DNA of 64,000 nt from Halodesulfovibrio sp. (lineage in GTDB: Bacteria; Desulfobacterota; Desulfovibrionia; Desulfovibrionales; Desulfovibrionaceae). Numbering within the stretch: position 1 is the stretch's first letter; every line of letters begins with the position of its first letter. A model generated the notes under the pieces. It made no database searches, was not told the DNA's origin, and saw only the letters and a program-made list of their open reading frames with translations. Shown piece by piece: positions 31,704 to 48,097 of this stretch. A program made the position numbers and the translations under genes. The stretch lies in NCBI RefSeq assembly GCF_025210605.1, contig NZ_JAOARI010000017.1, forward strand, positions 186,001 to 250,000. Direction: 5' to 3'.

Positions 31704-31711
31704 TTGGTTAA

Positions 31712-35509
<3,798 letters not shown>

Positions 35510-35532
35510 CACGCAGCCAGCTAACTAGCTGT

Positions 35533-35582
35533 TAAAGGTTCCCGGTAAGGGAGCGGAAGCCTGAGCCGGGAACCTTTTTATT
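35533..35582 (+). terminator. Intercistronic terminator-like hairpin between por and lctP
   Basis: AAAGGTTCCCGG pairs with CCGGGAACCTTT and is followed by a short T-rich tail. It would let por be made in excess over the distal genes by partial termination or by protecting the 3' end. Confidence 0.8.
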
Positions 35583-35652
35583 CAATCGTATCCGTTTTAA
35601 TGGTGGAAAAGCGGATACGGTTGCTAACAACCTAAATGAGGAGCGTTTTATT

Positions 35653-37338: not shown

Positions 37339-37347
37339 AGTATACTT

Positions 37348-37385
37348 GCCGGAGACAGTCACATACGGCTGTCTCCAGCTTTTTA
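37348..37385 (+). terminator. Intrinsic terminator between lctP and glcD
   Basis: GGAGACAG (37351-37358) and CTGTCTCC (37369-37376) are extended by flanking GC pairs and followed by AGCTTTTTAC. It is a good intrinsic terminator, so downstream genes need read-through or another promoter. Confidence 0.75.
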
Positions 37386-37518
37386 CTAGTGTATTGAAGA
37401 ACGGGGCTACTGCGGAAGTGTGCCCCGTTTTTTCAAGTATTCGCCCAAGCTGCTCGTTGCCGGTTATTTTGAGCACTTGAGGCTGATTGTAGACAACATA
37501 ATTATTGAGGAGAACTCC

Positions 37519-40204: not shown

Positions 40205-40221
40205 TCGCTATGCGATATATG

Positions 40222-40395
40222 GTTCAGTGACAACGTCCTGAACTTACAGACTGAAACAAATCCGTACATTGTCATTGCGGTAGATATCTTTCTCCGACGT
40301 ATAGTGCGTAAGAGCTTGAAATTTATATTGCAATAACGCAATGTACGGGTTTGCCATCGGTCTGCAAAAGTATTCCTCAGGAAGTGGTTCTGAGG
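40222..40395 (+). other. Structured leader region upstream of pta
   Basis: Several complementary segments lie in order: GTTCAG (40222) with CTGAAC (40238); CAGAC (about 40247) with GTCTG (about 40360); AAATCCGTACATTG (40258-40271) with CAATGTACGGGTTT (40339-40352), 13 of 14 positions pairing; ATTGC with GCAAT inside; and CCTCAG (40375) with CTGAGG (40390). The result is a long branched RNA directly before the pta ribosome binding site. I matched no known riboswitch family. Confidence 0.55.
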
Positions 40396-40451
40396 GTGCA
40401 GGTTCGATCATAAAAATTGGCTAGTATCAATGGATATGCAAGGAGTCCATA

Positions 40452-43794: not shown

Positions 43795-43819
43795 CATTTA
43801 AGTTCATTGCGAAGTTAAT

Positions 43820-43851
43820 CCGGAGCAGAAACGTGCCGGTTTCTGCTCCGG
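43820..43851 (+). terminator. Intercistronic hairpin after ackA
   Basis: CCGGAGCAGAAAC and GTTTCTGCTCCGG form a perfect 13 bp stem with a 6-base loop. The tail (TATTTGCC) is only weakly U-rich, so it may act as an mRNA 3'-end stabiliser with leaky termination. Confidence 0.7.
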
Positions 43852-43909
43852 TATTTGCCATTTTGCCGAAAGAGGTATATCCCGAAGCATCTTCTTTGGG
43901 AGGGAATAC

Positions 43910-44983
43910 ATGATTGGACTTTATATTGGATCTACAGACGCATTTGCGGGAAAAAATATTGTATTGATGGCTTTAGGGCTGGAGATGCAACGGCGCGGGA
44001 TGCGTGTAGGCTATATGAAGCCTGTCGGGTCACTTCCTAAACGGGTTGATGATGTCATCGGGGATGAGGACGCCATCGTCATTCAGGAGCTTCTCGGTCT
44101 TGAGATTTCTCCGGATATACTTACACCGGTAATTATTCCAGATAACCTGAGAGTCACTACCCTCTCTGATGAAACAGACGCTTTGGCTGCCATCCAAAGT
44201 GCCTACAACACCATTTCCAAAGACAAAGATGTTATGCTCGTCGGCGGTTGTGGTTCCATCCAATATACCGGTACCCACAGGGGTGTGGATGGTCTCACCT
44301 TGTCGCGAAAACTTGGATTGAAAACGTTACTCGTAGATCGTTACCGCAGAAACAGGCTCAACTATGATGCCATTCTTAACATTAAGAAAACACTCGGCGA
44401 CGATATGCTCGGAATACTGTTTAACGATGTACCGGAAGATTTTTCACGCGATGCAGAAGACATTCTGATTCCGTTTTTAGAAAAAAACGACGTGGATGTA
44501 TTCGGCATGGTTCCTAGAGACCCGATGCTTAACGCCATTAAAGCATCCGAACTCTCATGGCGCCTCAAAGGAAAAATCATCTCAGGTAACTCACAATCCC
44601 AACGTATTATTCAGAACTTCTTGATTGGTACTATGCAGGTGGAAAACTTTATGACGTATTTCCGCCAGTCATCCAATCTTGCCACCATTGTTGGTGGAGA
44701 CAGAACAGATTTGCAGCTTATCGCTATGGAAGGCGGATGTCCTTGTCTTATTGTGACAGGAAACATCACCCCTAACGAAATTGTACGTGCCCGTTCCGAA
44801 CAGCTTGGCGTTCCTGTTATTCAGGTTCCAGATGATACCTACTCCGTTGCTCGAAGCATGGAGCTTATTCTGAACAGTCAAAAACTTCGTGAACTGGTCA
44901 AAATCAAACGCGGCGCTGAACTTGTTGACAACTCGTTTGATTACAATAAGCTATGTAAAAAACTGGCTCGTCAATCTGAATAG
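43910..44983 (+). CDS. BioD-like P-loop and DRTGG-domain protein (paralogue of the Pta N-terminal part)
   Basis: The 357-residue protein has the same architecture as the first half of Pta: an N-terminal dethiobiotin-synthetase-like P-loop domain, where the motif reads STDAFAGKNIVLMA, and a DRTGG domain at about 215-330 (IISGNSQSQ, VGGDRTDLQ). It lacks the catalytic phosphotransacetylase domain. The function is not known. Its place between ackA and the lut genes, as with DVU3031 in D. vulgaris, suggests a regulatory or metabolite-sensing role in acetyl-phosphate metabolism. AGGGA precedes the ATG. Confidence 0.85.
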   Translation: MIGLYIGSTDAFAGKNIVLMALGLEMQRRGMRVGYMKPVGSLPKRVDDVIGDEDAIVIQELLGLEISPDILTPVIIPDNLRVTTLSDETDALAAIQSAYNTISKDKDVMLVGGCGSIQYTGTHRGVDGLTLSRKLGLKTLLVDRYRRNRLNYDAILNIKKTLGDDMLGILFNDVPEDFSRDAEDILIPFLEKNDVDVFGMVPRDPMLNAIKASELSWRLKGKIISGNSQSQRIIQNFLIGTMQVENFMTYFRQSSNLATIVGGDRTDLQLIAMEGGCPCLIVTGNITPNEIVRARSEQLGVPVIQVPDDTYSVARSMELILNSQKLRELVKIKRGAELVDNSFDYNKLCKKLARQSE

Positions 44984-45081
44984 TGCAGACCCTGCCCCAC
45001 TCAGTTGCCACAAAGCAAGTACGGATTGCACCACTGCATATGCATTTCTTTTCTACCGCAATTCTAGACAAAGGTAGAAAA

Positions 45082-45164
45082 GGTGAATGTCCGTACGAGC
45101 AAAGCTTAGTGTTGCCGCTTTGCTGAATTTGTCCGGAAGACCAAATTCTGTACGACATTCATCC
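45082..45164 (+). ncRNA. Candidate structured RNA: three-way junction in the lutC leader
   Basis: An outer helix pairs GAATGTC/GTAC (45085-45096, one bulged C) with GTAC/GACATTC (45150-45160), extended outward by three more pairs. It encloses two perfect hairpins placed end to end: AGCAAAGC (45098-45105) with GCTTTGCT (45117-45124), and GAATTTG (45125-45131) with CAAATTC (45142-45148). Only one unpaired base lies at each outer junction and none between the inner hairpins. The compact shape is what riboswitch aptamers and protein-binding leaders look like. No known family was recognised; the fold is by eye. Confidence 0.6.
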
Positions 45165-45255
45165 GTTGAGGAGATTCTACAACCATTACGGTTGCTGTTT
45201 TGCATGCACGAACCCGCCTGAATATCAGGATGCAGCGGTGGACGGTATGCTCAGC

Positions 45256-45274
45256 GGTGTTCTTACTGAACACC
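45256..45274 (+). promoter_or_regulatory. Hairpin next to the lutC ribosome binding site
   Basis: GGTGTTC (45256-45262) and GAACACC (45268-45274) form a perfect 7 bp stem with a TTACT loop, about 8 bases before the CAGGAG site of lutC. Two smaller stems, CAACC/GGTTG near 45179 and CCTGA/TCAGG near 45217, lie between it and the three-way junction. Confidence 0.55.
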
Positions 45275-45293
45275 ATAGTTTCAGGAGTGTCAC

Positions 45294-45890
45294 ATGAGCG
45301 ACCTCAAACAGCTTTTTCGCGAAAAAGCAGAATTGGTAGCTGCTAAAGTTACCAGCATTAAATCCATGGACGAAGCATACGCATACGCTGCAAAGTATGT
45401 TGCTGAAAAAAATCCATGCGAACTTCTCATTCCTTCCAGCCCTAATGCTCCACAGCCAGAGTTTGCTGCTGAAAAAATTATGGCTGCTCCAGAACTTTCC
45501 GATGAACAATACGCTGCACTTGAAAAAGAGTGTGAAGCAAATAACGTAAAGCTCATTAAATCCGGCATGCGTGACTACATGGCTGGTATTGATGCAGGCT
45601 TTACCATTGCAAACGCTGGTTTTGTTGAAACTGGTTCTATTGTTCAACAGTCCAACGGAGAAGAACTGCGCCTCGCAACTATGGTTTCAGAAGCACACAT
45701 TGCAGTGCTCTCTGCTTCCACAATTTATGAGGACTCCATCGCAGCAGAAAAACTTCTGCTCGAGTTGATGAGCGGCGTTGCATACACCGCTGTAATCACC
45801 GGCCCAAGCCGTACTGCTGACATCGAACGCACACTTGCTATCGGTGCACACGGCCCACTCGAACTCCACATTCTTCTCCTGGAGGACTAA
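45294..45890 (+). CDS. lutC: LutC/LldG-type lactate utilisation protein
   Basis: The 198-residue protein is a LUD-domain protein like LutC/LldG, a subunit of the iron-sulfur L-lactate dehydrogenase that replaces the flavin enzyme in many anaerobes. Typical stretches are FTIANAGFVETGSIV near residue 103, and GPSRTADIERTLAIGAHGPLELHILLLED at the C-terminus, which is the family hallmark. CAGGAG lies upstream of the ATG. The stop is followed after two bases by the start of the LutB-LutA fusion gene, so the two are translationally linked. Confidence 0.94.
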   Translation: MSDLKQLFREKAELVAAKVTSIKSMDEAYAYAAKYVAEKNPCELLIPSSPNAPQPEFAAEKIMAAPELSDEQYAALEKECEANNVKLIKSGMRDYMAGIDAGFTIANAGFVETGSIVQQSNGEELRLATMVSEAHIAVLSASTIYEDSIAAEKLLLELMSGVAYTAVITGPSRTADIERTLAIGAHGPLELHILLLED

Positions 45891-45892
45891 TC

Positions 45893-48037
45893 ATGCATAA
45901 AGCTGAAAATCTCAAAGAATACCGCGAAGACATGCAGGAAGCTCTTGATAACGAGTTTCTGCGCAAAGCTATGGATGCATTTGCTGTTGGCTACCGTGAA
46001 AACCGTGCAAAAGCATTCGCAGATATCAACGAAAAAGAACTCATTAAGAAAATTGCAGACTGTAAAGACTACGCTGTAAAAAACAATGCAGCACTTTTAA
46101 AGCAGTTTACTGAAGAAGCTGAAAAACGCGGTGTTCATGTTCACCTTGCAAAAGATGCGGAAGAGGCTAACTACCTCATCGCTAAAATTGCTAAAGAGAA
46201 CAACGTTAAAAAAATCATCAAATCCAAGTCTATGACTTCTGAGGAAACTCTCCTCAACCACTACCTCGAAGACGAACGATTTGAAGTTGTTGAAACTGAC
46301 CTCGGCGAATGGATTATTCAGATGCGCCATGAGGGACCTTCCCACATGGTTATGCCTGCAATTCACCTTTCCCGTTATCAGGTACAGGATCTTTTCTCCA
46401 AAAGAACCGGTCAGGAACTTGAGTCCGACCCTGTTAAACTGACCAAAGTTGCTCGCCGCGAACTGCGCCGTGACTTTGCAGATGCAGACATGGGTATCTC
46501 CGGTGCAAACTTCTGTGTGGCAGAAAACGGTCACATCGGCATCGCTACTAACGAAGGTAACGCACGCCTTACTACAACAGCTCCTCGTGTACACGTTGCG
46601 ATTGCTGGTATCGATAAGCTTGTTCCTAAGCTTACAGATGCTCTTACAGCACTTAAAGCACTTCCTCGTAACGCAACCGGTCAGGCTCTGACATCCTACG
46701 TTACATGGATTGGCGGTGCTACAGAGTGTGCACTGAATGAAGACCAGAAAAAAGAAATGCACATTGTATTCCTTGATAACGGTCGTTCTAAAATTGCAGA
46801 AGACGAAATGTTCTCTCAGATTTTCCGCTGTGTACGCTGTGGTGCCTGTGCGAACGTATGTCCTGTTTACCGTCTTGTTGGCGGTCACCAGATGGGTCAC
46901 ATTTACATTGGTGCAATCGGTCTTATCCTCACCTACTTCTTCCATGGTGAAGACAAAGCTAAAAACCTTGTGCACAACTGCATTAACTGTGGTGCATGTA
47001 AAAACATCTGTGCTGGCGGCATTGACCTTCCAGGTCTTATTAAAGAGCTGCGCGCACGTATTAACGAAGATAACGGCATGCCGGTTGAAACCAACCTCCT
47101 TGGTAAGGTTCTTAAAAACCGCAAGCTCTTCCACTCTCTCCTGCGCTTCGGTAAATGGGCACAGACTCCTGTAAAACAGGGACCATACCTGCGTCACTTA
47201 CCGCTCATGTTCATGAAAGATCAGGGCTTCCGTTCCTTCCCGACTATTGCAGACAAGCCGTTCCGTGATCGCTTTAAAGAGATCAAGCCAATGGTACACA
47301 ACCCAGTGCACCGTGTTGCTCTCTTCTCCGGTTGTGTTCAAGACTTTGTATACCCAGAGCAGATGGAAGCTGCTGTAAAAGTTATGGCACGCCATAACGT
47401 TGCTATCGACTTCCCAATGGATCAGAGCTGCTGTGGTCTTCCTGTACAGATGATGGGCGAAAAACAGGCGACCATCGACGTTGCAAAACAAAACGTTGAT
47501 GCGTTCGAAGGCACTAACTGCGACTACATCGTAACACTTTGTGCTTCCTGTGCTTCCCACTTGAAAGAATCCTATGCAGAGCTGCTTGCTGGTGATCGCA
47601 AATACAAAGAGAAAGTAAAACGCTTCTCTGCTAAGATCATCGACTTCTCTTCATATGTTCATGACGTACTTGGTGTATCAGCTGACGATTTCAATAAGTC
47701 TAATGAAAAAGTTGCGTACCACGCATCTTGTCACCTCTGCCGTGAACTCAAAGTTGTTGAGCAGCCTCGTAACCTTATCGAAATGGCAGGCGACTACGCT
47801 CCTTCCGCAGAAGAAGACGTATGTTGCGGCTTCGGTGGTACATTCACAGTTAAGTTCCCAGAACTGTCCTCAACACTGCTGGATAAAAAACTTACCAATA
47901 TCGAAGCAACCGGTGCTAAACGCCTTGTAGCAGACTGCCCGGGCTGTCTCCTGCACCTGCGCGGTGGTTCTAATGTTCGTAAAAACGACATGAAAGTAAC
48001 TCACATCGCAGAACTTCTCGCAGAAAACCTCAAGTAA
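45893..48037 (+). CDS. lutB: LutB-LutA fusion: iron-sulfur subunit of L-lactate dehydrogenase
   Basis: The 714-residue protein joins two subunits that are separate in Bacillus. Residues about 60-290 are the LUD domain of LutB (SKSMTSEE, ISGANFCVAENGHIGIATNEGNARL). Residues about 305-390 hold two 4Fe-4S motifs (CVRCGACANVCP and CINCGACKNIC). The remainder carries two CCG domains of the LutA/LldE type (LFSGCVQDFV...CCGLPV and YHASCHLCRE...CCGFGGTF). With LutC it should oxidise L-lactate to pyruvate. The same fusion is found in D. vulgaris (DVU3033). It is the last gene of the lactate regulon and is closed by a strong terminator. Confidence 0.94.
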   Translation: MHKAENLKEYREDMQEALDNEFLRKAMDAFAVGYRENRAKAFADINEKELIKKIADCKDYAVKNNAALLKQFTEEAEKRGVHVHLAKDAEEANYLIAKIAKENNVKKIIKSKSMTSEETLLNHYLEDERFEVVETDLGEWIIQMRHEGPSHMVMPAIHLSRYQVQDLFSKRTGQELESDPVKLTKVARRELRRDFADADMGISGANFCVAENGHIGIATNEGNARLTTTAPRVHVAIAGIDKLVPKLTDALTALKALPRNATGQALTSYVTWIGGATECALNEDQKKEMHIVFLDNGRSKIAEDEMFSQIFRCVRCGACANVCPVYRLVGGHQMGHIYIGAIGLILTYFFHGEDKAKNLVHNCINCGACKNICAGGIDLPGLIKELRARINEDNGMPVETNLLGKVLKNRKLFHSLLRFGKWAQTPVKQGPYLRHLPLMFMKDQGFRSFPTIADKPFRDRFKEIKPMVHNPVHRVALFSGCVQDFVYPEQMEAAVKVMARHNVAIDFPMDQSCCGLPVQMMGEKQATIDVAKQNVDAFEGTNCDYIVTLCASCASHLKESYAELLAGDRKYKEKVKRFSAKIIDFSSYVHDVLGVSADDFNKSNEKVAYHASCHLCRELKVVEQPRNLIEMAGDYAPSAEEDVCCGFGGTFTVKFPELSSTLLDKKLTNIEATGAKRLVADCPGCLLHLRGGSNVRKNDMKVTHIAELLAENLK

Positions 48038-48060: not shown

Positions 48061-48097
48061 AAAAAGGAGGACACATTTGTGTCCTCCTTTTTTTATT
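48061..48097 (+). terminator. Terminator at the end of the lactate regulon
   Basis: AAAGGAGGACACA and TGTGTCCTCCTTT form a 13 bp stem with a very small loop, followed by TTTTTATT. Confidence 0.94.

Follow-up and report, generated by a model that had tools for sequence, protein, structure and literature searches.

A conserved, folded RNA leader of several helices before lutC in the luo operon of Halodesulfovibrio

The intercistronic gap before lutC in the marine sulfate reducer Halodesulfovibrio carries a real conserved, folded, non-coding RNA of several helices that is tied to one lutC gene. The gap comprises 310 bases at positions 44984-45293 on the + strand of the window, the whole stretch of 64,000 nucleotides that was analysed. 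Its first 20 bases are poorly conserved. The conserved RNA element, delimited with a six-genome Halodesulfovibrio alignment and its conservation profile, begins at about 45003 and runs for some 290 bases, up to the ribosome binding site of lutC (45003..45290, + strand). An original prediction, made from the letters of the window, had placed a three-way-junction RNA from 45082 onwards. That start is too late, since the sequence is conserved from about 45003 onwards and a covarying hairpin occupies 45047-45083.

Judged by gene order and content, the surrounding operon is the luo operon of Desulfovibrio. The genes are arranged as histidine kinase, sigma-54-type response regulator, por, lldP, lldG, lldH, pta, ackA, DRTGG (pta-N), lutC and lutB; names were assigned from a reading of the proteins and the D. 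vulgaris order. The DRTGG-type gene (pta-N, 43910-44983) is the upstream neighbour of the gap. The genes lutC (45294..45890, + strand) and lutB (45893..48037, + strand), recognized by open reading frame and homologues, follow it. LutC had been described as an iron-sulfur L-lactate dehydrogenase; it is the small LUD-domain subunit of that enzyme, and the iron-sulfur motifs sit in the LutB subunit encoded at 45893-48037. The sequence AGGAG (45283..45287, + strand), invariant in all six genomes, is the putative ribosome binding site of lutC. A terminator-like hairpin lies near 48065, after lutB. According to PMC4481167, the nine luo genes of D. vulgaris from por on are transcribed together, with the only mapped start lying before por, and the luo enzymes are proposed to form one complex. 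The Halodesulfovibrio locus resembles D. vulgaris luo (DVU3025-3033; PMC4481167, PMC6456213) in gene order, including DRTGG (pta-N) and lutCB, and in the sigma-54-type regulator upstream. In the passages searched, neither of the two papers mentions any structured leader upstream of DVU3032. That the Halodesulfovibrio genes are transcribed as an operon is assumed by analogy with D. vulgaris. A sigma-54-like promoter sequence, TGGCATATCTTTTGTA, was seen by eye before por at about 31704-31720 and fits the D. vulgaris operon. An own promoter for the leader was rejected, as no sigma-70-like match was found before it, and the leader is without a terminator bearing a strong U run.

The 5' half of the element consists of a hairpin, P1, followed by the three-way junction. 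P1 (45047..45083, + strand; 45047-45058 with 45072-45083) has the conserved loop sequence ATTCTAGA; over its 12 columns 95.8% of cells are paired and four pairs show changes on both sides. Two palindromes are candidate protein sites or contacts for RNA dimers: the perfect 10-base TGCATATGCA at 45035-45044, within conserved sequence preceding P1, and TCTAGA at 45062-45067, inside the P1 loop. From 45070 to 45175 the fold of lowest energy is the nested junction originally predicted, an outer helix enclosing hairpins of 8 and 7 bp with almost no junction base between the helices. Its energy is -32.7 kcal/mol, compared with -22.0 +/- 3.05 for shuffled sequences (z -3.5; 0 of 200 shuffles as stable). 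The junction spans 45084..45161 (+ strand). Its outer helix, proposed at about 11 pairs (45085-45096 with 45150-45160), is present there and is somewhat longer, with 13 consensus pairs between 45084-45097 and 45149-45161 and C45091 bulged. Hairpin P2 (45098..45124, + strand; 45098-45105 with 45117-45124) has 8 bp and the conserved loop part GTTGCC. Hairpin P3 (45125..45148, + strand; 45125-45131 with 45142-45148) has 7+2 bp and the invariant loop CGGAA. The 3' half contains the hairpin CAACC-ATTAC-GGTTG (45180..45194, + strand), invariant in all six genomes and hence offering nothing to test by covariation. Beyond it lies a second helical domain of the consensus fold (45197..45255, + strand; 45197-45207 with 45243-45255), which encloses CCGC/GCGG and CCTGA/TCAGG helices and has one pair with both-side changes. 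The perfect 7-bp hairpin expected just before the ribosome binding site is also found (45256..45274, + strand; 45256-45262 with 45268-45274), and it covaries, with two such pairs.

Fold energy is a poor guide in this stretch of DNA. Tight junctions of this kind had been said to arise rarely by chance, a view that needs tempering: several other co-directional gaps of the window fold at z -5 to -7, probably because of terminators. When column-shuffled alignments are folded, several gaps give strong z-scores, and so does the minus strand. Fold z-scores were therefore rejected as proof, since other gaps score equally, and the case for the leader is based on conservation and on pair-preserving changes.

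Covariation was assessed in an alignment of the window genome and five other Halodesulfovibrio genomes (n=6). In those five, the gap measures 318-321 bases and is 85-88% identical to the window leader. Across the 5' half, 97.4% of cells pair, and six pairs of P1-P3 carry both-side changes, against a shuffled mean of 2.3; none of 500 shuffles reached this number, and sliding the partners left 0-1 such pairs. P2 contributes one of these pairs, with 100% of its cells paired, and P3 another, with 98.1%. Compensatory changes, proposed as a check on all three helices of the junction, thus occur in P2 and P3; the outer helix shows one-sided changes only. In that helix 97.4% of cells are paired, three pairs vary on one side and none on both, so that its support is weaker than that of P1-P3. 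The changes are A-U to G-U or G-U to A-U. Read from the opposite strand, a G-U pair of this kind becomes an A-C mismatch, which indicates the + strand. Support is also weaker for the 3' half, where three pairs change on both sides, two of them in the hairpin before the ribosome binding site, and 74 of 500 shuffles score as high. For the whole leader there are nine both-side pairs against 0-1 when partners are slid. The structures were derived from the same alignments as the tests, which consequently lean towards them. The promoter region between the response regulator and por is also positive in the shuffle test, with 13 both-side pairs and 3-6 after sliding. For this reason reliance is placed on the slid control, the G-U strand asymmetry and conservation.

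Conservation of the leader exceeds the neutral level and has no codon pattern. Of the four-fold codon sites in the genes on either side, only 35% show no change among the six genomes; for leader columns the invariant share is 74-78% in the 5' half, whether paired or unpaired, and 67-78% in the 3' half. Unpaired bases are conserved as strongly as paired ones. This is more than simple stabilizing hairpins need and suggests specific recognition by a protein, an RNA or a ligand.

The element has a narrow range. Two covariance models, of 139 and 133 positions, find one copy per genome, always directly before this lutC, in six of ten genomes of the genus. Building and searching with such models had been suggested as a check, and the outcome is a structured leader conserved in six Halodesulfovibrio genomes. 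Every genome with this lutC, six in all, carries the element, H. spirochaetisodalis JC271 among them. The other four genomes filed in the genus are without a close lutC, and their luo operon ends at the DRTGG gene; in three of them the next gene resembles, by eye, a chemotaxis-type gene located directly after lutB in the window. The presence of luo without lutCB in four of ten genomes marks the genes for L-lactate dehydrogenase as gained or lost in a lineage-specific manner. Beyond the six known copies nothing scored above chance with both models in 288 genomes of the family, with the 5' model in an order sample of 347 genomes or with the 3' model in a phylum sample of 395, under strict filters that could miss weak, diverged relatives. 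A lone match among the 288 genomes (E 0.023 per genome) was rejected as expected by chance. The covariance models matched none of the lutC loci taken from other genera. The absence of any described family of this shape, as first surmised, is borne out in Rfam 15, where no family reaches its gathering threshold; a weak match to a snoRNA (E 0.87) is taken as chance.

The leader is one of five folded luo gaps. All five intercistronic gaps of the operon carry hairpins, and their mean identity is 0.79-0.88, compared with 0.45-0.76 in eight orthologous gaps from other parts of the window. The por-lldP gap (35510..35652, + strand) has a conserved terminator-like hairpin followed by a second long hairpin. 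The first of these, at 35534-35582 (AAAGGTTCCCGG...CCGGGAACCTTTTT), is strong, resembles an intrinsic terminator and is kept in six genomes; partial termination at such a site would leave por as the most abundant transcript. A conserved hairpin occupies the lldP-lldG gap (37339..37419, + strand). The lldH-pta gap (40205..40451, + strand), 247 bases and conserved, holds a long hairpin (AAATCCGTACATTG ... CAATGTACGGGTTT), folds at z -5.3 to -6.6 and has seven pairs with both-side changes. In the ackA-DRTGG gap (43798..43909, + strand; z -3.6 to -5.3) a conserved perfect 13-bp hairpin after ackA is accompanied by smaller ones. Four sister genomes keep a long hairpin in this gap with a different sequence. 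In another genus the ackA-lutC gap of 214-300 bases forms multiple hairpins with repeated GUGGAAG in the loops; it has no Rfam match at the four loci scanned and could be a separate RNA element. The DRTGG-lutC gap of two Nitratidesulfovibrio-type loci has only some 13-28 bases. Repeated modules common to the luo gaps were considered and rejected: the longest shared word, between the por-lldP gap and the leader, is 10 nt, a length reached in 17 of 500 shuffles, and this was one comparison among many. With place kept and sequence turning over, spacers acting in mRNA processing, stability or translation fit better than a ligand-specific aptamer.

The favoured explanation, held with about even confidence, is that the leader is a cis-acting structured intercistronic segment of the luo mRNA that sets LutCB output via processing, stability or translation. 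The leader would be transcribed as part of the operon mRNA. Its helices may then direct or block RNases and also serve as a structured leader for ribosome binding at lutC. The lutCB part would thereby be processed, stabilized and translated separately from the upstream pta-ackA. Control cistron by cistron fits better than a riboswitch because the leader belongs to a set of five conserved, folded gaps. In favour of this explanation are the conserved fold with both-side changes and its four conserved, folded counterparts in the operon. The replacement of sequence at a kept place, seen in the ackA hairpin and in the lutC leader of the other genus, points the same way, as does the lack of a promoter-like match or strong-U terminator in the leader. 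The single nine-gene transcript and the proposed complex of D. vulgaris, where subunit ratios would matter, add an argument by analogy. The strong folding of other gaps of the window and the extent of unpaired-base conservation count against it. Stem-loops within one polycistronic unit, its polycistronic nature being taken from D. vulgaris, are also the arrangement of selective RNA processing and stabilization. In the cip-cel operon of Clostridium (Ruminiclostridium) cellulolyticum, intergenic stem-loops direct cleavage and set transcript and subunit ratios (PMC4423207, PMC10311766). In both operons, each of them long, several gaps contain stem-loops and the gene products assemble into a complex (for luo, a proposed one). 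Cleavage sites and transcript ratios were measured for cip-cel, whereas the luo gaps are known from sequence; the Halodesulfovibrio leader is also longer and includes a three-way junction as well as conserved loops.

Recognition of the conserved loops by CsrA or another RNA-binding protein, which would repress or activate lutC translation, is possible but unlikely. The genome has csrA, unpaired bases are conserved, and the gap has five conserved GGA triplets, of which one lies in the P3 loop and another at the Shine-Dalgarno sequence (SD), a placement like that of CsrA/RsmA-bound leaders. Unlike those leaders, most GGA sites here are without the ANGGA form; only one conserved site (ACGGA near 45021) has this form, which is typical of CsrA, and GGAA loops are also common as stable tetraloop-like caps.

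The leader had been proposed as a riboswitch or a protein-binding leader. The structured leader stands, and the riboswitch is unsupported: the element occurs in one genus, has no terminator-type switch and shows SD masking near zero. It is improbable that a metabolite, be it lactate, pyruvate, acetyl phosphate or another, is bound by the junction and second domain and thereby controls how accessible the ribosome binding site of lutC is. Equally improbable is the more specific form, a genus-specific riboswitch in which P1 and the three-way junction would be the aptamer, the second domain and the last hairpin the expression platform, and a pathway metabolite would control L-lactate dehydrogenase. 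A long multi-helix leader that ends at the ribosome binding site and has conserved loops is a likeness to the riboswitches and leader families of Rfam 15; those differ from the Halodesulfovibrio element, which ranges over one genus. Invariant loops and linkers would also suit a riboswitch, as would the invariant competing segments GTACGG/CCGTAC and CCTGA/TCAGG. By pairing with CCGTAC (45091-45096), GTACGG (45019..45024, + strand) could compete with the outer helix. This pairing has a predicted probability of at least 0.8 in two genomes, about 0.5 in one and at most 0.12 in three. The SD-masking CCTGA:TCAGG pairing has a probability of about 0 in all six genomes by equilibrium prediction without ligand, so that an anti-SD switch is not predicted, although one that forms with ligand could escape such a prediction. 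Confinement to six genomes of one genus, the prediction of the GTACGG helix in only part of them and the four sibling gaps, likewise structured, also speak against a riboswitch. If the riboswitch reading were true, the leader would sense the flux of central carbon.

A small RNA released from or encoded in the gap and acting in trans, with the proximity of lutC incidental, is very improbable. The compact, stable fold and the single copy per genome would suit it, but the element is always directly before lutC and never elsewhere, has no promoter-like match before it and no terminator at its end, and its structure runs into the ribosome binding site. A hidden short protein gene on the + strand, suggested by open frames of about 43-63 codons that cross the region in several of the genomes, is scarcely credible as the source of the conservation and was rejected: substitutions spread evenly over the three codon positions, with 8-11 non-synonymous against 0-1 synonymous codons in the three genomes compared, the frame is broken in the window, and the helices carry both-side changes.

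The leader is a defined RNA element, so far unlisted, for which an alignment and two covariance models now exist. Lactate oxidation is the metabolism most characteristic of these sulfate reducers. If the favoured explanation is true, the luo operon would be a tractable case of RNA control of stoichiometry outside the clostridial example.
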